NCBI GenBank assembly: GCA_016931365.1
Contig: JAFGEY010000168.1
Coordinates: 1 to 15,290 of the forward strand
Origin: Anaerolineae bacterium
GTDB lineage: Bacteria; Chloroflexota; Anaerolineae; JAFGEY01
Direction: 5' to 3'
DNA length: 15,290 nucleotides
Shown in pieces: positions 1,868 to 9,186 of this stretch. Positions within the stretch are counted from its first letter, which is position 1. Each line of letters opens with the position of its first letter. A program made the translations under genes and the position numbers. A model generated the notes under the pieces. That model did not search any database. It saw nothing but the letters and a program-made list of their open reading frames with translations, and had not been told where the DNA came from.

Positions 1868-2332
1868 CTAGACATTGGTCCAGGCGGTCATTTCCATCCC
1901 ATGATGAACCAGTTCCAGGCTTTCAATTGCCACACCATTGCCGTCGGTTTTGAGGTCTGGCCCACTCCACTTGACCGGAAAGGCGTTGCTAAGGTTCCAG
2001 CGCTTGACTTTGGACCGATCCAGGTTGTACAACAGGATCGAGACCGCCTTCCGGCTGACCTTGCCGTCGTATAGCCCATCCTGGAACCATTGCCACAACG
2101 TTTCATCGGCAATGCCACGTTTCAGGGCAACACGAGGATACTTGACCCGATCGGGCAATTGGTGCACAAAGTCATTCGTGCCCCCTTCCTCATACGGGAG
2201 AACACTGCGCTCGACCGAAAGCCCGCTACACTCTGTAAACCAAGCGACCTTTTGGCCACCTAATTCGATGCCAAACCGAAAGCCGGCTACAGGATTGATC
2301 GCATCCGAAATCACCGGATTTGCAGGTGACAT
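1868..2332 (-). CDS. Phage tail tube-like protein (gp19/TIGR02241 type), third tube paralogue
   Basis: This 154-residue protein has the inner-tube fold signature of contractile tails: FRFGIELGG near residue 18, WFTECSGL near 31, then the block YEEGGTNDFVHQLPDRV, LKRGI, LWQWFQDGLYDGKV, and a C-terminal FPVKWSGPDLKTDGNGVAIESLELVHHGM. Length is typical for Afp1/Afp5-class tube proteins. The ATG at 2332 has a strong AGGAGGTGG just upstream. It is collinear with, and visibly similar to, the product of 2357-2968, and more distant from the main tube at 3653-4132. In Afp/PVC systems, extra tube paralogues are thought to form the tube base near the spike and baseplate, or to mix into the tube. Which role this one has cannot be told from sequence. 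Confidence 0.9.
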   Translation of the reverse strand: MSPANPVISDAINPVAGFRFGIELGGQKVAWFTECSGLSVERSVLPYEEGGTNDFVHQLPDRVKYPRVALKRGIADETLWQWFQDGLYDGKVSRKAVSILLYNLDRSKVKRWNLSNAFPVKWSGPDLKTDGNGVAIESLELVHHGMEMTAWTNV

Positions 2333-2356
2333 ACCACCTCCTCAAGTCTAGAAGGT

Positions 2357-2968
2357 TCACGACCTGCGCCCAACCGTTCGTTCGCGCTCACGCCCAAGTT
2401 CGTATCGCAACAGATCATAAACTTTCTTTGCTAACGCATCAACATCTATACCAGTCGTTGATCCCGCCTCTGTGTGCTCCGAGGATTCCCCGTTTGCTGC
2501 CCGTTGTACAAGACCAACAGACTCACCCGAGGCCGATCCACTTCCCCCGACGCCCTGGGCAATCTCGATCGACTCAACGGTGACTTGCGAATTGCCACTT
2601 TCAAGCATCGGGCCTGTCCACTTGACCGGATAAGCGTTAGTCAGACTCCATCGACGCACTTGGCTGAAATCGACGCCGTACAGGACAATCGATACATTGT
2701 GACGCGTCACCCGGCCATCATACAGCCCTTGTCGGAACCACTCCCAGAGTGACTGATCAGATATGCCCCGCTTAAGGGTGATATTGGTATGTGTGATCTG
2801 ACCAGGAAGTTGGTGTACATACTCGTTCACACCACCTTCCTCATGCGGAAAAACGGTGCGTTCAATGGTCAGCCCACCGCACTCGGTGAACCATCCCACG
2901 ACAAGGCCTTCCAACTCGACGCCAAACCGAAACTCGGCAGTTGGATCGCTTTGCTCACCCAATACCAC
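2357..2968 (-). CDS. Tube-like protein with a disordered linker and C-terminal helical tail, second tube paralogue
   Basis: The first 140 or so residues are a gp19-type tube domain (FRFGVELEG, WFTECGGL, HEEGGVNEYVHQLPGQI, LKRGISDQSLWEWFRQGLYDGRV, YPVKWTGP) closely matching the next gene. Unlike it, this protein continues with a Gly/Ser linker (GGSGSASGES), a VQRA motif, and a charged amphipathic tail (DVDALAKKVYDLLRYELGRE). I prefer GTG at 2968 (MVLGEQSDPTAEF) because GGAGG sits five bases upstream; a TTG at 2980 would put that Shine-Dalgarno inside the coding region. The C-terminal helix recalls similar tails seen on other eCIS proteins and may dock to a baseplate or chaperone partner. That role is inferred, not shown. 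Confidence 0.87.
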   Translation of the reverse strand: MVLGEQSDPTAEFRFGVELEGLVVGWFTECGGLTIERTVFPHEEGGVNEYVHQLPGQITHTNITLKRGISDQSLWEWFRQGLYDGRVTRHNVSIVLYGVDFSQVRRWSLTNAYPVKWTGPMLESGNSQVTVESIEIAQGVGGSGSASGESVGLVQRAANGESSEHTEAGSTTGIDVDALAKKVYDLLRYELGRERERTVGRRS

Positions 2969-3040
2969 TCGTGCCTCCAACAGAACCAGATATATGACAT
3001 ATCCACCGTCTGGTCATTATGCCAAGCTGCTGCAAGATGC

Positions 3041-3208
3041 TCAACGTTTCACTGCCTCATTTAGCCTGCGATTGATTTTTGCAATCTCTTCGGTCCACTT
3101 TTGCCTTTCACCGTGCTCGAGGCTCAAAATGTCCTCGCGCGGCCAGTGAAAGTGGTAAGCAATGTAGGCTACCTCCTCGTGCAGGCGATCGAGGGGGTAG
3201 CCTAAGAT
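3041..3208 (-). CDS. DUF6760-like segment, -1 frame extension of the tail-assembly-chaperone gene
   Basis: The 52 codons 3199-3044 encode YPLDRLHEEVAYIAYHFHW followed by a charged stretch ending LNEAVKR, then TGA at 3043-3041. From memory this matches the small DUF6760 proteins that sit next to tube genes in eCIS loci. No ATG, GTG or TTG precedes this block: upstream in frame are GGC, TTA, ATC, GGG, GGG, CCT and then TGA (3220-3218). The only late alternatives are a CTG or ATT inside the conserved block. It is therefore best read as a -1 frameshift product joined to residue 121 of the upstream protein through ATC-TTA-GGC, giving a fusion of about 176 residues. Coding is likely; the mode of expression is inferred. 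A missed indel in the six-G run could mimic this. Confidence 0.75.
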   Translation of the reverse strand: MLGYPLDRLHEEVAYIAYHFHWPREDILSLEHGERQKWTEEIAKINRRLNEAVKR

Positions 3209-3214
3209 CCCCCC
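3165..3214 (-). promoter_or_regulatory. Candidate programmed -1 ribosomal frameshift site: slippery heptamer plus stem-loop
   Basis: On the minus strand the zero frame reads CTG GGG GGA TCT TAG. G GGG GGA (3214-3208) fits the X XXY YYZ rule, so both tRNAs can re-pair after slipping one base back. Three bases later comes a stem: TAGGCTACCCCCTC (3204-3191) pairs with GAGGAGGTAGCCTA (3178-3165), 13 of 14 positions, with one C-A mismatch and a 12-base loop. The zero-frame stop is the first stem codon, and the -1 frame enters the DUF6760-like segment. The 3-base spacer is shorter than the usual 5-9 bases, but opening the weak basal U-A/A-U/G-C pairs would bring it to 6. Confidence 0.7.
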
Positions 3215-3570
3215 AGGTCAGCCAGATCAACCTCAATTTCAGTGTTGCACTGAGGACACTTGACCGCGATCCGGCTCGCTCCCTGCTCATTGATCTGGCG
3301 ATAAAAGGCCTGCAGGTAAGCCAGATCGGCCGCAAAAAGATTTTCGATCACGCCTGTCGTAACCTGCGACAAGGTGCCCAATTTGACAATGACCCGTGAT
3401 AGTAAAATGATCACCAGATAAGCCTGATTGGAACGCACACGCAGGTCGCGCAAGGGTGTGATCTCGTCCATTGCAGTGGCCAGACGCATCACGCCATAGC
3501 GATGAAGATTGCCATCTTGATCTATGTAGCCTTTAGGTAAGGTGAATTCAAACTCGGTCTGCAGGCTCAT
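3202..3570 (-). CDS. Tail-assembly-chaperone-like protein of the injection system
   Basis: This 122-residue protein starts at ATG 3570 with GAGGA seven bases upstream (MSLQTEFEFTLPKGYIDQDGNLHRYGVMRLAT). A helical middle follows (residues about 45-100, LVIILLSRVIVKLG), then a single CPQC knuckle near residue 108 and an acidic end. Proteins of this kind sit between tube and baseplate genes in eCIS loci and are commonly annotated as tail assembly proteins. The position, right after sheath and tube, is that of lambda gpG and P2 gpE. Only one CxxC is present, so a complete zinc ribbon would need a second pair from a partner molecule or from the -1 extension, which carries YHFHW. Its last three codons include the slippery sequence, so the ribosome probably makes a short and a long form. 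Confidence 0.8.
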   Translation of the reverse strand: MSLQTEFEFTLPKGYIDQDGNLHRYGVMRLATAMDEITPLRDLRVRSNQAYLVIILLSRVIVKLGTLSQVTTGVIENLFAADLAYLQAFYRQINEQGASRIAVKCPQCNTEIEVDLADLGGS

Positions 3571-3596
3571 TGTTTTTCCTCATCAGACAAGCTGGC

Positions 3597-3632
3597 AGCA
3601 TAGGGCCAAAGTTTGTCCTTTGGCCCTATGCT
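3597..3632 (-). other. Perfect 15-bp hairpin between tube and chaperone genes
   Basis: AGCATAGGGCCAAAG (3597-3611) is the exact reverse complement of 3618-3632, with a 6-base loop. It lies 21 bases after the tube stop codon and before the chaperone Shine-Dalgarno. No T run follows on the minus strand (GCCAGCTTG), so it is not a standard intrinsic terminator. A 3'-end stabiliser or processing site that keeps tube and sheath mRNA more abundant than downstream transcripts is the best guess. Confidence 0.65.
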
Positions 3633-3652
3633 CCGCCGGGAAACAACCCCAT

Positions 3653-4132
3653 CTACACGTCGCGAGACATTCCTTCATGCACGATCACAACCTCTTCGAC
3701 GCCAAACTCATTGCTGTCCGATTTGAGGCTGGGCCCGGTGACTTTGGACGGCCAGGCCTTCTGGAAACTCCATGAAGCAACCGGTGCCGAATAGTCACGG
3801 GCCATCATGTGGATCGAGCACGTGGTGCGCGCATCTGAAATTTTGCCCAGGACCACCATGTCTCGCCACTCCCAGATCGTCAGGTCCGACGTGATACCGC
3901 GCTTGAGGGTGATATCACCCCATTTCAAGCGACCAGGGATCTTGCGTAAAATCTCGTGGCCATTCTCATCCACGACCTTGTGATCGATCACCTCGTTCTC
4001 GGAGCCGATCCCGCTGCACTCGGTAAAATAGCCCACGGTTTTGCCTCCGAGATCGAGCTTAAAGGTAAATCCCAGTAGGGGATCCTCTGTGGTTGGAGAG
4101 TCATTGCCACTCAGATATGGATTTGCAGGCAT
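3653..4132 (-). CDS. Inner tail tube protein of the contractile injection system
   Basis: This 159-residue protein opens with MPANPYLSG and carries the tube-domain marks LLGFTFKLDLGGKTVGYFTECSGI (split over residues 19-42), LRKIPGRLKWGDITLKRGIT (about 61-80), IWEWRDMVV and WPSKVTGPSLKSDSNEFGVE near the end. The length equals that of the major tube subunits of Afp/PVC particles. ATG 4132 is preceded by a strong GAGGAGGT. It lies 57 bases after the sheath stop codon, the usual sheath-tube order, and is followed by a strong hairpin. It is the most likely major tube subunit, because the two other tube-like proteins resemble each other more than this one. Hexameric rings stacked inside the sheath are the known family architecture. 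Confidence 0.93.
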   Translation of the reverse strand: MPANPYLSGNDSPTTEDPLLGFTFKLDLGGKTVGYFTECSGIGSENEVIDHKVVDENGHEILRKIPGRLKWGDITLKRGITSDLTIWEWRDMVVLGKISDARTTCSIHMMARDYSAPVASWSFQKAWPSKVTGPSLKSDSNEFGVEEVVIVHEGMSRDV

Positions 4133-4189
4133 TGTATATTACCTCCTCTTTCAGGTTGCTGATACATTCACTCGGGTATGTGTCCCCAA

Positions 4190-5833
4190 TTATCCACCAC
4201 CAGCCCACTGGCTGATCCGGAAGATGACAAACTCGGCCGGCTTGACTGGGCACATGCCGATTTCAACGATCAGTCGCCCCAGATCGCGCGATTCTGGCGG
4301 GTTCAACTCGGCATCGCACTTGACATAGAACGCCTGGCCCGGACTGCTTCCAAACAACGCGCCGCTGCTCCAAATGGTGGTTAAAAAGGCCGAAACGTCA
4401 CGCTGCACGCGGAACCACAAGAATGGATCGTTGGGTTCAAAAACCACCCACTGTGTACCGTTTTCGATCGACTTTTCGACCATATTGAACAGACGACGGA
4501 CGTTCAGGTAACGCCATGACGGGTTGCTGGAAAGCGTGCGCGCGCCCCAAACACGGATGCCTCGTCCCGGGAAAGAACGAATGCAGTTGACACCGATGGG
4601 GTTGAGGGTATCCTGTTCACCCTTGGTGGTATTGTAGGACAGGCCAATGGCCCCCTGCACAACTTCGTTAGCCGGAGCTTTGTGGACGCCGCGCGAGTTG
4701 TCGTTACGCGCCCAAATGCCGGCCATGTGTCCCGATGGTGGAATGTAAATGGGTCGGTTCTGGATCGGGTCTTGAATCTGAATCCAGGGATAATAAAAAG
4801 TGGCATAGCTCGAGTCGTATCCGGCCGTTTCCATACGCCACTTTTTGACTTCTTGCGGCAGCATATTGGGCGGCGGATCGATGATCGCCACGCGGTCGCC
4901 CAGGCGCTCGCAGTGCGCGATCATGGCCGTTTGCACGGCTTTGACCATATTCAGATCCAAATCCTGTCCAGGTGGGACAGACATCAGGTCGGGAACAACC
5001 AGCATCGTCACATCATCAAGCGCTTCCACACCCTCGATGCCAGAGCGCTTGCTGACATCACCCTGGAACTCGCTGGATGTAGATGGCGACAACAGTTTCT
5101 GATCGAGCGTGAGCGACTGCTGCTGCACGCGCGGCCAGATTTTCTCCAACGGCCCCGCACTTTCGGGAACCACCAGTTCGATCCACTCTGGCAGCTTGTT
5201 GTTCTCATAAAGAACCTGAACTTGCTTGATACCCGCTTGCTCAATTTCTTCCAAAACAACATTGGAGCGCGTCTCCTGTACTTGCCACGCCCCGCCAACA
5301 CCCTGCCGCTCAATAGTTATATTGAATGGAGGATTCTTGCTCGCCGCAGGTGGCGGCGCGGCGCCTTCTTCTTTTTCACCGCCCTTTGCCTTGGCCGGCG
5401 GAGGTGCGGGCGCCTCCGGCACCTCGACATTGACTCGCAAGCGCAGCCCATCAAATCCAGACCGCTTGGCCCGCGCAAGCAGATGTGGCTTGCCATCCGC
5501 GCCTAAAAGGGCAGTTTGGGCCTTGCCAATCGTCTTGACGCTGACCACATAACACCTGGAGCCCCCATTGTTAAAATAGCCGTAAACGGCATGGGGCATA
5601 TAGGCACCCTCGACAAACTGCCCGAAGAGCTGAACATACTGGCTCCAGTTGGTGACAAGCTGGGACTGGTTGAGCAGGTCCTCGGTGATCATTTCGCCAT
5701 CAACCTCGCGTAGCCGCTCGGCTCTTTCAGTAAAGCCGATAAATGCAGGCATCGCTGTGCCGACAGCTTCGATCGGCTTGGGGCCTCGATCTATCTCTTC
5801 GACATAGACCCCCGGCGATAGATATTCAGGCAT
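4190..5833 (-). CDS. Contractile tail sheath protein
   Basis: The 547-residue product starts MPEYLSPGVYVEEIDRGPKPIE, the classical N-terminus of tail sheath proteins. It ends with the conserved C-terminal domain (PIGVNCIRSFPGRGIRVWGA at about 417-436, then YLNVRRLFNMVEKSIENGTQWVVFEPN and FVIFRISQWAGGG). Such subunits polymerise around the tube and contract to drive it through the target envelope. ATG 5833 has GGAGG five bases upstream. Residues about 138-170 are a Pro/Ala/Lys/Glu-rich insertion (APAPPPAKAKGGEKEEGAAP) within the surface-exposed middle domain, explaining a length at the upper end of the family. It is the first gene after an intrinsic terminator, so probably heads its own transcript. 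No other sheath paralogue is visible, whereas Afp has three. Confidence 0.96.
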   Translation of the reverse strand: MPEYLSPGVYVEEIDRGPKPIEAVGTAMPAFIGFTERAERLREVDGEMITEDLLNQSQLVTNWSQYVQLFGQFVEGAYMPHAVYGYFNNGGSRCYVVSVKTIGKAQTALLGADGKPHLLARAKRSGFDGLRLRVNVEVPEAPAPPPAKAKGGEKEEGAAPPPAASKNPPFNITIERQGVGGAWQVQETRSNVVLEEIEQAGIKQVQVLYENNKLPEWIELVVPESAGPLEKIWPRVQQQSLTLDQKLLSPSTSSEFQGDVSKRSGIEGVEALDDVTMLVVPDLMSVPPGQDLDLNMVKAVQTAMIAHCERLGDRVAIIDPPPNMLPQEVKKWRMETAGYDSSYATFYYPWIQIQDPIQNRPIYIPPSGHMAGIWARNDNSRGVHKAPANEVVQGAIGLSYNTTKGEQDTLNPIGVNCIRSFPGRGIRVWGARTLSSNPSWRYLNVRRLFNMVEKSIENGTQWVVFEPNDPFLWFRVQRDVSAFLTTIWSSGALFGSSPGQAFYVKCDAELNPPESRDLGRLIVEIGMCPVKPAEFVIFRISQWAGGG

Positions 5834-6141: not shown

Positions 6142-6972
6142 TCACATATGTAAATCGTAATCAGTCGACGGAACCTGAATTTTGAAACGATGAGGTTTTT
6201 TCCCGTCTTCTGTCACTTCCAATGTGTACTCTCCCGCCCGAAGCCGGCCCACTGCAAACCGCCCCTCCGCCTGAAGCAGCACCTCGTCGCCCCGCTCGAC
6301 CAGGATCGCCCGCATCGTCTCCAGCGGACGATCGCTATGAAGTGTCCCACCAATAGTCCAGAACCGCTCTGCTTCAGTATCAAGTTGCTGCAACCACGGC
6401 AGTCCTGCCTGGCCGAAACGCAACTCGCGCGTCCGCACCAGCGGCCCGGTGATGGGCAGGTACGGATTGAGTGCCAGCGTGATCACACAGGCAATGGCTG
6501 GTCGAATTTCATTGTCAAGCACATTCCAGACATCGGTTGGGCTGCGAAATTCATCGATTTGCGCCACCATCAACGGCAGCGGGACGGGTTGCGCGTGCAA
6601 GCTCTCAGGCAAAACGCTTTCAGGGAGATGTGGGTAGCGAAACAAGGACATCAAGGCACGAGACAACAAGTGATGTTCGTCGTCCGGTTCTGCCGCCCAA
6701 GCGGTAATTATGTAATGCAAGTCCACCCGCACCGGTTTGCGGCGCTGCGTCACCGTGCCGTCCTCATTGCGCGTGGTCTCCCAGAGTGGTTGGGCCTGAC
6801 GCAGTTTTTGGTTTTCCCTCACGTCATAGAGAAACAGGTTCAGCGTCGGACGACTCAAGCGTGCCGACCATTCGCGTTTGGGTTGATCAAATGCGATGTC
6901 GATTTCGCCGTTTTTGATGGGCATTTCCTGGATCAGCAACTGCCGCAAGGCTTCGTCTAGATCGTCGATCAC
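6142..6972 (-). CDS. DUF4255 (Pvc16/Afp16-like) tail terminator protein
   Basis: The 276-residue protein matches the DUF4255/Pvc16 N-terminal family: IDDLDEALRQLLIQE at the start, DIAFDQPKREWSARLSRPTL, then the hallmark NLFLYDVRENQKLRQ, a basic stretch, LHYIITAWA (about 90-98), EHHLLSRALMSLFRYPHLP and a small beta-rich C-terminal domain (EYTLEVTEDGKKPHRFKI). Family members cap the tube and sheath end and set tail length (Afp16). The start is GTG at 6972, six bases after GGGAG; an overlapping ATG is immediately followed by TGA. It begins 18 bases after the ATPase stop, so the two are one transcript. An intrinsic terminator follows at once. The beta-rich C-terminal part is an addition beyond the core domain. 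Confidence 0.92.
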   Translation of the reverse strand: MIDDLDEALRQLLIQEMPIKNGEIDIAFDQPKREWSARLSRPTLNLFLYDVRENQKLRQAQPLWETTRNEDGTVTQRRKPVRVDLHYIITAWAAEPDDEHHLLSRALMSLFRYPHLPESVLPESLHAQPVPLPLMVAQIDEFRSPTDVWNVLDNEIRPAIACVITLALNPYLPITGPLVRTRELRFGQAGLPWLQQLDTEAERFWTIGGTLHSDRPLETMRAILVERGDEVLLQAEGRFAVGRLRAGEYTLEVTEDGKKPHRFKIQVPSTDYDLHM

Positions 6973-6990: not shown

Positions 6991-9186
6991 TTAACTTGGA
7001 ACAAACGTCATATCCTTTTCATTCACCAGCCGACCAATTTTTTGCAGTTCTCGTCGCGTGCCATGAAGCAGATGCGTCATCATAATTATGCGCCCATCCG
7101 CTGCGGCCAAGTAGGCCGCACTGACGATGATGTTGCGAATGTTGCCTCCGGCCAGCTTGAAGCGACGGGCCAACAAATCAAAGTCCACATCTGGGCTGCA
7201 AGGCACATTCGAGGGAAAGAGAGTTTGCCAGATGCGTAGCCGATATTCTTCCTCCGGGAAAGGGAAATCAACCGAAAATTGGAGCCGCCGCGTAAAGGCC
7301 TCGTCCAGATTTGCGCGCAGGTTTGTGGCCAAAATGGTGATCCCGTTGTAAATCTCCATGCGTTGCAGCAAATAGCTGATCTCAATATTGGCATAGCGAT
7401 CGTGGGCATCTTTGACCTCAGAGCGTTTGCCAAAAAGCGCATCGGCCTCATCGAAAAAGAGGATCGCATTGCTGCTCTGCGCTTCGTTAAAGATTTTTTC
7501 CAGGTTCTTTTCAGTCTCACCGATGTATTTGCTGACTACCGTCGAGAGATCGATCTTGTACAGGTCGAGTCCCAATTCGGCCGCAATCACCTCGGCGGCC
7601 ATCGTCTTGCCTGTGCCCGGCGGCCCAGCAAAGAGTACGGTAATCCCGGCATTGGAAACCAGTTTTCTCCTCAATCCCCACTCATCTAGCACAACAGCAC
7701 GCCCTCGTACCGTATCGACAATTTCGTGAAGCAAAGTCAATTGATCGTCGGGCAAAACAATATCCGCCCAGCCGTAGTGAGGCTCAATCTTGCGAGCCAG
7801 GCTGGATAGTTTGGGATTGGAATGCATTCGAGCCGAAACAAAGAGGTCATGAACCTGCAATGACCGCTGTTGCCGCACAGCAATATCTCTGGCCGAGGCA
7901 ACCGCATCGCGGATTTGCCCACTGCTTAACGCAAACTGACCGGCCAGCGCCTCAAGATTGTCCTGTTCTATTTCAGTTGGATACAAGTAATGCGCCCACA
8001 ACGCTGCGCGTTGAGCATAATTGGGAATATCAAACTCGAACCAGAACAACGGACGCTGGCGGTCGATACCTGTTGACTGCCACGCGTTTTGGCTGGCGAC
8101 AATGACCAAATCAGAAAAAGTGTACAATTCAACCAGCACAGCATGCAAAAGCGCATAATCGTCGCGGGCCTCAATGGCGTCCCAGCCCCATAAAAAGGGA
8201 ATCGCGCAGGTCAAGCGCGCATCTCGCAAGGCAAGGTGTACAACATAAGCAGCATCCAGGCCGCTGGCAAGAGCATCAGACAAATTCACGGTCAGCAGCG
8301 GGCGATCCATCCATGCTGTGCACAATCTTGCTGCAGCTTCCTGAGCAGTTCGATCTTGACCGCAAAAAGCAACAACCGGATACACAGATTCTGAAGAGGG
8401 TTTTATATCTGTCAGTTCGCCGACAACACCGCCCGCCAGCAGCTCATCTGTCTCGCTTTCCTGGGAGCGGCTTAATGTTGCATACGCCGCCAAATCAGCA
8501 TGCGGCTCATACCGGCCCAACAACCAGGCCACGATGGCATCGTCGGGCAGCAAGATCTGGCTTAGCAAGGACGTCTTGCCCGCGCCAGACTCAGAAACGC
8601 GCTCGATCAGCCGATATTTGATCAAAGGCGCATGATCGGCAAAATGTTCCAGGGCCAACAACCGTTGCAGACCCGGTTCGCACAACAGATCGAGCACCAA
8701 ATTGACCGTGGGATGCTTGCGTGTCACGTCGTCTTGCAAATAACCGTACAGACGCTCGTAGCGAAGATCGAGAGTGGGAGCCAGACAAATCAGAAAGGCA
8801 TCTAGCTCGAAACGATCCAGTCCGAATGTGGCCATCAAGTGGAGAAGCGGAGGAGTTTGCTCTGCCTGGCTGAACTGTTGAGCCAACAATTCAACTTGAT
8901 GCGCTGCTTGTTCTTCCGCCTGCGCAAAAACCTGGAACTCATCCGGAGGCAGGATTCCCGCATATCCCCAGTTGCTTCCCAGAGGACGCGCCAGCAGTTC
9001 CGCTGCTTCAGCGTCGGAAACATAGAGACCACGAAAAGCATCGTTGGGATCTTGCCCGGCGACTTGCCAGAGCCGAAACTGACGATGAATCCTCACATCG
9101 ATCCGCGCCAGTTCTGCCTGCAAATACGCCAGACAATCAACCGATGCATCACTATGAAAAGAGCTTACACTCACTCTTGATGACAT
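6991..9186 (-). CDS. AAA+ ATPase of the contractile injection system (Afp15/Pvc15 type)
   Basis: The 731-residue product carries a complete C-terminal AAA+ module: Walker A GPPGTGKT (521-528), Walker B ILFFDEAD (575-582), sensor 1 ILATN (618-622), arginine-finger region FTRRLQF (631-637) and sensor 2 GGNIRN (680-685). The N-terminal half has an alpha-helical region (1-200) and a degenerate AAA-like domain (about 265-400) without usable Walker motifs. This matches the large CIS ATPases adjacent to Afp16-like genes, which are needed for particle assembly or release, with the exact step unresolved. ATG 9186 is preceded by GAGG about seven bases away. A strong promoter with a palindrome lies 50-80 bases upstream. 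A single active module and the tail-gene context argue against a proteasome- or FtsH-type role. Confidence 0.93.
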   Translation of the reverse strand: MSSRVSVSSFHSDASVDCLAYLQAELARIDVRIHRQFRLWQVAGQDPNDAFRGLYVSDAEAAELLARPLGSNWGYAGILPPDEFQVFAQAEEQAAHQVELLAQQFSQAEQTPPLLHLMATFGLDRFELDAFLICLAPTLDLRYERLYGYLQDDVTRKHPTVNLVLDLLCEPGLQRLLALEHFADHAPLIKYRLIERVSESGAGKTSLLSQILLPDDAIVAWLLGRYEPHADLAAYATLSRSQESETDELLAGGVVGELTDIKPSSESVYPVVAFCGQDRTAQEAAARLCTAWMDRPLLTVNLSDALASGLDAAYVVHLALRDARLTCAIPFLWGWDAIEARDDYALLHAVLVELYTFSDLVIVASQNAWQSTGIDRQRPLFWFEFDIPNYAQRAALWAHYLYPTEIEQDNLEALAGQFALSSGQIRDAVASARDIAVRQQRSLQVHDLFVSARMHSNPKLSSLARKIEPHYGWADIVLPDDQLTLLHEIVDTVRGRAVVLDEWGLRRKLVSNAGITVLFAGPPGTGKTMAAEVIAAELGLDLYKIDLSTVVSKYIGETEKNLEKIFNEAQSSNAILFFDEADALFGKRSEVKDAHDRYANIEISYLLQRMEIYNGITILATNLRANLDEAFTRRLQFSVDFPFPEEEYRLRIWQTLFPSNVPCSPDVDFDLLARRFKLAGGNIRNIIVSAAYLAAADGRIIMMTHLLHGTRRELQKIGRLVNEKDMTFVPS

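Follow-up and report, generated by a model that had tools for sequence, protein, structure and literature searches.

The tail assembly chaperone (TAC) gene of an eCIS injection-system cluster in an Anaerolineae bacterium (Chloroflexota) very probably gives rise to two proteins, TAC and TAC-DUF6760, through a putative programmed -1 ribosomal frameshift. Five computed features carry this reading: a slippery site near the end of the TAC gene, its codon phase, the lack of a start codon for the DUF6760 block, a conserved downstream hairpin, and family relationships of the two halves with phage TACs and with GpE. From these we infer the ribosomal shift itself, its frequency and the roles of the two proteins. 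The analysis started from a window of 15,290 nt, i.e., the whole stretch of DNA examined (contig JAFGEY010000168.1), and was extended to related loci in other genomes.

Pfam searches show that the minus strand of the window carries an eCIS gene cluster. In gene order, it encodes an FHA protein, an AAA ATPase with a winged-helix match at its N-terminus (6991..9186; PF00004, 4e-29; PF22977, 7.1e-40), a Pvc16-like protein (6142..6972; PF14065, 6.8e-35), the tail sheath (4190..5833; PF04984, 8.4e-23; PF17482, 9.5e-19), a tube protein of the Phage_T4_gp19 family (3653..4132; PF06841, 2e-33), and, immediately downstream of this, the TAC. Two further tube-family proteins follow (2357..2941, start unsettled, PF06841, 2.6e-33; 1868..2332, PF06841, 1.2e-39). 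Assignment to the eCIS class rests on the co-location of sheath, tube, Pvc16-like and AAA ATPase genes within the window. No phage head genes were found in ten scanned stretches, and the cluster extends past the window edge at position 1. A long open frame with proline-rich near-repeats (2-1846) also continues off the window edge. Between the tube and TAC genes lies an inverted repeat without mismatches (3597-3632; AGCATAGGGCCAAAG / CTTTGGCCCTATGCT), with arms of 15 nt and a loop of 6 nt, which may serve in mRNA processing or attenuation.

The TAC ORF (3570-3202, minus strand; zero frame, 122 aa) matches PHROG 508, ‘tail assembly chaperone’ (2.9e-5), and has no Pfam match above the curated cut-off. 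Its 3' end reads ..GCT GAC CTG GGG GGA TCT TAG. The heptamer G GGG GGA that an earlier note had placed in zero-frame phase is indeed found at 3214-3208, and the zero-frame stop TAG follows one codon later (3204-3202), within the 5' arm of the hairpin. As that note had also claimed, the -1 frame opens after a TGA (3220-3218) and enters the DUF6760 block with no start codon on the way: from 3217 up to the YPLDR block, this frame contains no ATG, GTG or TTG. It reads PGGILGYPLDRLHEEVAYIAYHFHWP.. up to a TGA at 3043-3041. The DUF6760/GpE-like extension (3041..3208, minus strand; PF20546, 1.9e-16) comprises 55 codons from ATC (3208-3206) plus the stop, so that the predicted fusion has 121+55 = 176 aa, with CPQCNTEIEVDLADLGGILGYPLDR as the tryptic peptide expected across the junction. 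For L217-type actinomycete loci, a junction peptide such as LGGIVTYALPR was derived by hand.

A hairpin, the presumed frameshift stimulator, was identified by folding and covariation at 3165..3204 (minus strand; arms 3204-3190 and 3179-3165, 15 nt each; loop 10 nt). The spacer of 3 nt from the heptamer agrees with the earlier note, but the stem described there (14 positions, 13 pairs) is larger in fact, with 14 pairs and one mismatch over 15 positions. Compared with dinucleotide shuffles, a 91-nt segment gave z -2.0, with 8/200 equally stable; compared with synonymous shuffles, the 45-nt segment gave z -4.6, with 0/60 equally stable. An Rfam search of positions 2800-3700 returned no match up to E 1. 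We also considered the hairpin as an intrinsic terminator and rejected this, since a terminator scan of 2300-4200 gave one site, located elsewhere.

Related loci were collected by several routes. Protein searches yielded at least 7,996 relatives of the TAC (8,000 entries scored) as well as 509 DUF6760 proteins that stand alone. A genome scan supplied 80 loci, the best of 554 confirmed and hence biased toward close relatives, and a viral scan contributed five. Family searches, named by the inferred phylum of the seed genome, found matches in 12/198 actinomycete, 19/194 cyanobacterial, 10/196 archaeal, 80/187 Myxococcota, 4/198 Desulfobacterota-type and 6/299 Pseudomonadota genomes; 40 of the 57 Myxococcota matches listed without a locus were fetched, and 10 of 35 plasmid records with a match were opened. 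The census covered loci L001-L218 and the window (219 sources) and gave 219 DUF6760 hits, with none at L168; removal of a second alignment at L216 left 218, and removal of identical 150-nt regions left 207 distinct DUF6760 regions. A slip site was counted if it began with GGGG, lay in -1 phase, and fell between the opening of the DUF6760 frame and the TAC stop.

Such a site was present in 194 of the 207 regions, and because it recurs in phase to this extent, a junction arising by chance is implausible. The slippery site proposed from the window alone therefore passes the comparison with relatives, although not in the form described. G runs are conserved, most often with five Gs (140/194 loci) and otherwise six (18), seven (25), eight (8) or four (2), and one locus has no G run near the domain. 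The canonical tandem heptamer occurs at only 49 loci, whereas 143 have a site at which only the P-site codon can re-pair exactly and two have other types. That the commonest site, GGGGGAA/G, is not the canonical tandem heptamer counts against the frameshift reading. Judged by record titles, the G-run form occurs in Chloroflexi, Actinobacteria, Cyanobacteria, Myxococcota, Nitrospirota, delta-type groups, Pseudomonadota, KSB1, Paenibacillus, Treponema, and the archaeon Methanoperedens, some of these sources being metagenome bins that may be mis-binned. Two of the 194 loci are atypical: L102 has no TAC hit, and L164 (on CCCCCCGGGG) was counted through GGGGTAG, though its slip site may instead be CCCCCCG. 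On a Treponema plasmid (L216:2331-4016), an ISAs1-family transposase gene appears to interrupt a TAC-like gene, and the GGGGGAA junction is intact.

The 13 other regions comprise six haloarchaeal junctions, one with TTTTTTA (L208), one in-frame fusion and five of start-codon type. All six haloarchaeal junctions (L127-L131, L213) carry GGGAAA(T/C) in phase in place of the G run, and L226, a locus of the Pseudomonadota set, shows by eye an in-phase GGGAAAG, which we take to be the lambda heptamer type. The presence of X XXY YYZ heptamers where the G run is gone supports the frameshift reading. The five start-codon regions (L101, L103, L105, L106, L203) have no slip site and an ATG or GTG a few codons ahead of the domain. 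Relative to the TAC HMM match, and with L216 counted twice, 212 out of 219 hits had the DUF6760 frame at -1; it was frame 2 for four, the same for two (L103, L167) and without a TAC match for one (L102). For three of the frame-2 cases (L122, L124, L126) the top hit was an upstream TAC copy, and by eye the adjacent TAC is in the expected frame; in the fourth, L109, the TAC is split between frames.

We also approached the junction from the TAC side. An alignment search of 151 Chloroflexota genomes gave 20 loci, of which ten have DUF6760 in the -1 frame, each with a G run by eye (10/10), nine lack both DUF6760 and the G run, and one, L249, is an in-frame fusion; a few of the ten duplicate loci collected earlier. 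The Chloroflexota TACs of L240, L242-L248 and L250 have differing tails, no DUF6760 and no nearby G run. Among the Pseudomonadota loci, L227 shows GGGGGAG by eye and L228 a fusion in frame; L230 has a DUF6760-like match without a TAC, and L229 has neither. L167 is likewise one in-frame TAC-DUF6760 ORF. Each of these three fusions (L167, L228, L249) is one ORF that holds, besides TAC-like domains and paired-cysteine motifs, a DUF6760-like domain at its C-terminus. Like the joint occurrence of DUF6760 and the G run in the TAC-side sample, they favor the frameshift reading. T4_baseplate (PF12322) is matched by L167 and L249, and L167 further matches DUF6760 (2.3e-5) and Phage_TAC_7 (0.0022), both below cut-off.

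The hairpin is selected beyond what the protein needs. For each of the 194 loci, we folded the 45 nt of the hairpin segment and compared it with 60 synonymous recodings. The median z was -3.82, with 176/194 loci below -2 and 155/194 more stable than all 60 recodings; the next two 45-nt segments, used as controls, gave medians of -0.15 and -0.62, with 10/194 and 23/194 below -2. Synonymous-site conservation, which the earlier note had proposed as a check, is centered on the slip site and the hairpin arms. Near-fixed codons occur at the site (GGG 0.98, expected 0.21; CTG ahead of the run 0.92, expected 0.35) and in the arms (GTA 0.92, expected 0.13; CCC 0.89, expected 0.26; AGC 1.00, expected 0.20), while most columns past the hairpin are nearer expectation, apart from some such as a Leu (0.50 vs 0.27) and a Ser column (0.48 vs 0.19). 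Among loci with other heptamers, z fell below -2 in only 2/9, which is a point against the frameshift reading. As a selected hairpin is typical of G-run loci and mostly lacking elsewhere, the hairpin goes with that form and may be dispensable at other slip sites. Upstream of the G run, in the segment from about 1 to 28 nt before it, there is an excess of Shine-Dalgarno-like sequence (118/193 loci with at least five matched bases, 71.6 expected; controls on 194 loci, 9 vs 22.7 and 14 vs 9.1 expected; one motif only), possibly an upstream stimulator.

Base-pair covariation was assessed after omission of 19/194 loci with ACGTAC, i.e., the actinobacterial hairpin, because its stem lies in a shifted register; every second of the 163 distinct 45-mers was used (82 sequences). 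The proposed partners were paired in 87.9% of cases, compared with at most 58.8% for slid partners. Pair covariation was 0.187 vs 0.129, higher than in every slid version and a value that 0/500 shuffles reached, although the sequences are related and the shuffles ignore this, so that shuffle counts are not probabilities. A second measure, further pair types across the 82 sequences, did not exceed the shuffles (130/500) and weighs against the frameshift reading. When pairs were taken singly, -3/32 and 8/21 were above all 2000 shuffles and -4/33, 7/22 and 9/20 were not, and for some pairs slid partners paired equally or more often. The Treponema plasmid L216 has GCUACC/GGUAGC swapped for GCCGCC/GGCGGC, and in actinomycete loci (L036, L041, L046, L217 and similar) the hairpin is rebuilt in the shifted register as GUACGC..GCGUAC, using other codons.

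Profile comparisons connect the two halves to phage tail proteins. An alignment of 49 DUF6760 sequences matched an alignment of 22 P2 GpE sequences over 29 columns (hhalign probability 90.1, E 1.6e-6), in line with the likeness to phage TAC frameshifts that the earlier note had drawn. P2 E' matches PHROG 1756 and PHROG 10636, to which DUF6760 members show weak matches at E up to 0.1 (9/49, best 0.01, and 20/49, best 1.3e-4, respectively). PHROG 508 was matched by 46/46 aligned TAC relatives. The TAC had no relation to P2 E detectable by hhalign, which tells against the frameshift reading, and tblastn of DUF6760 against the phage collection gave no match. Against PDB sequences, the TAC profile had one chance-level hit and the DUF6760 profile none. 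A structural model of the TAC (mean pLDDT 84) matched no PDB fold at E <= 0.001 and four viral folds at E <= 0.001, two of them named baseplate proteins (one T4-like); Mu FS-gp41 ranked lower, at E 0.22.

The closest known system is E/E+E' of phage P2 (PF10109, Phage_TAC_7; PF06528, Phage_P2_GpE). As here, the gene adjoins the tube gene; its -1 frameshift, annotated as such in the P2 record, lies near the 3' end, as is proposed here, and the extension, GpE, aligns with DUF6760; like DUF6760, GpE is listed in databases as a stand-alone protein. The systems differ in that P2 is a phage with a T run as slip site and the eCIS site is a G run, the TAC halves have no detectable similarity, and the near-invariant hairpin is a feature of the eCIS site. 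Phage lambda has a non-contractile tail. Its G/GT similarly yields a short and a long chaperone through a -1 frameshift, both missing from the finished tail according to the accessible text of PMC5009743. The same text describes haloarchaeal viruses (HCTV-1, -5) that use G GGA AAC / G GGA AAG for g-t frameshifts; these sites resemble the GGGAAA(T/C) of the six haloarchaeal eCIS-type regions, where the extension is DUF6760. T4-like baseplate hub assembly proteins (PF12322) are matched by the in-frame fusions L167 and L249; in these, unlike in the window, two TAC-like domains lie in a single ORF and there is no frameshift.

We propose that ribosomes on CTG GGG GGA would pause at the hairpin 3 nt downstream and that the tRNAs paired with the run of Gs would, in some of the passes, re-pair one base back. 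Translation would then continue in the -1 frame and avoid the stop one codon on, and one mRNA would yield both TAC (122 aa) and TAC-DUF6760 (176 aa). In the window, the P- and A-site tRNAs could both re-pair (G GGG GGA); in most relatives (143/194), exact re-pairing would be open to the P-site codon only, with an A-site G-U pair perhaps contributing. If lambda G/GT and P2 E/E+E' serve as models, the TAC may bind the length-determining protein and the GpE-like DUF6760 part may recruit the tube protein. The earlier suggestion that an eCIS makes forms of about 122 and 176 residues in this way is thus supported, as a prediction of the products, by slip-site recurrence, missing starts, codon conservation, and the GpE alignment.

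A separate DUF6760 protein might instead be made by coupled termination-reinitiation, with the G run serving as a Shine-Dalgarno sequence for an overlapping or non-standard start (GTG, ATG or ATC/ATA), a route that we regard as improbable. The missing start seen in the window recurs: at 92/194 G-run loci, window included, no ATG, GTG or TTG lies between the upstream stop and the domain, and at 141/194 none lies within five codons of it. At the other 53 an ATG or GTG is this close, which speaks for reinitiation and against the frameshift, and separate initiation could occur at these loci. A GTG six bases before the domain was found 36 times, 30 of them forced by the zero-frame TGA stop and six not. 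All seven table-11 starts are missing from the four codons after the site at only 37/194 loci, and rare starts (ATC, ATA) are therefore not dismissible by codons alone. Public annotation of six plasmid DUF6760 genes does place starts here, at GTG (twice), ATG, ATA, ATT and TTG (inside the domain), and in the lineages of the five regions with ATG or GTG right before the domain and no slip site, separate initiation probably operates. However, a hairpin would hinder initiation, yet it is selected at the G-run loci; the four start-codon-type loci that were folded have no selected hairpin; and reinitiation leaves the phase-keeping heptamers of the haloarchaea, L208 and L226 unexplained. Among 120 DUF6760 entries listed, 107 have at least 12 residues ahead of the YP pair, each with GG directly before it, and the N-termini of the entries compared are -1 readings of the TAC 3' end (MQCRVRDRSG..GGIVGYPLER); judged by sequence, their starts are chosen within the other gene. 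The claim that the whole DUF6760 class is mis-annotated nearly holds, the exceptions being the five start-codon regions and some distant in-frame fusions.

Slippage of RNA polymerase on the G run would generate a mixed mRNA pool with some messages in frame, and the same long protein would result by either route. Runs of five to eight Gs, present at 191/194 loci, are compatible with this. Polymerase slippage usually needs longer A/T runs, though, and most of the runs here have just five Gs, the GGGAAA(T/C) and GGGAAAG sites have no long homopolymer, and conservation of both the codon phase of the run and a downstream mRNA hairpin fits a paused ribosome better; we consider this origin highly unlikely. 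The least credible origin is a miscounted G run or a broken fusion gene, in which the halves would form one open frame. G runs are error-prone and in-frame fusions exist in distant relatives, but hundreds of regions from separate assemblies, complete chromosomes and plasmids among them, show the same -1 relation. The earlier note had named runs of 5 or 7 Gs as what would betray a simple fusion; the DUF6760 frame is in fact -1 at five, six, seven and eight Gs, and therefore neither fusion nor a G-count error explains it. For the family, this recurrence excludes sequencing error and gene breakage.

The programmed frameshift is itself already known from phages. In the open-licence literature we found no description of its use in eCIS, of what DUF6760 is, of the G5 site or of the conserved hairpin, subscription papers lying outside the scope of the search. 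Within open-licence PMC literature, DUF6760 is unmentioned and eCIS and ribosomal frameshifting do not occur together; eCIS and tail assembly chaperone are joined only in PMC13222765, in the available text through Vladimirov 2022 in its reference list, and the word ‘frameshift’ is absent from the available main text of some open-licence CIS papers.

Taken jointly, the results make it likely that DUF6760 is mostly not a gene of its own but a GpE domain that frameshifting adds to the eCIS assembly chaperone. The signal, CTG followed by a G5-G8 run and by a hairpin in the codons of the extension, would be of the kind used for phage tails and kept across about ten bacterial phylum-level groups and archaea, and the usual GGGGGAA would be a little-known slip site of the P-site re-pairing kind, perhaps aided by an A-site G-U pair. 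This reading gives DUF6760 an identity, as the GpE-like end of a two-form chaperone, and accounts for its invented or non-standard starts in databases. It would extend to eCIS the principle, known from phages, of a set ratio between chaperone forms, and if an eCIS cluster were recoded or its genes expressed one at a time, the long form would be lost without notice. It also makes length control in eCIS directly testable, as the junction peptide can be searched for in existing Streptomyces CIS proteomics.
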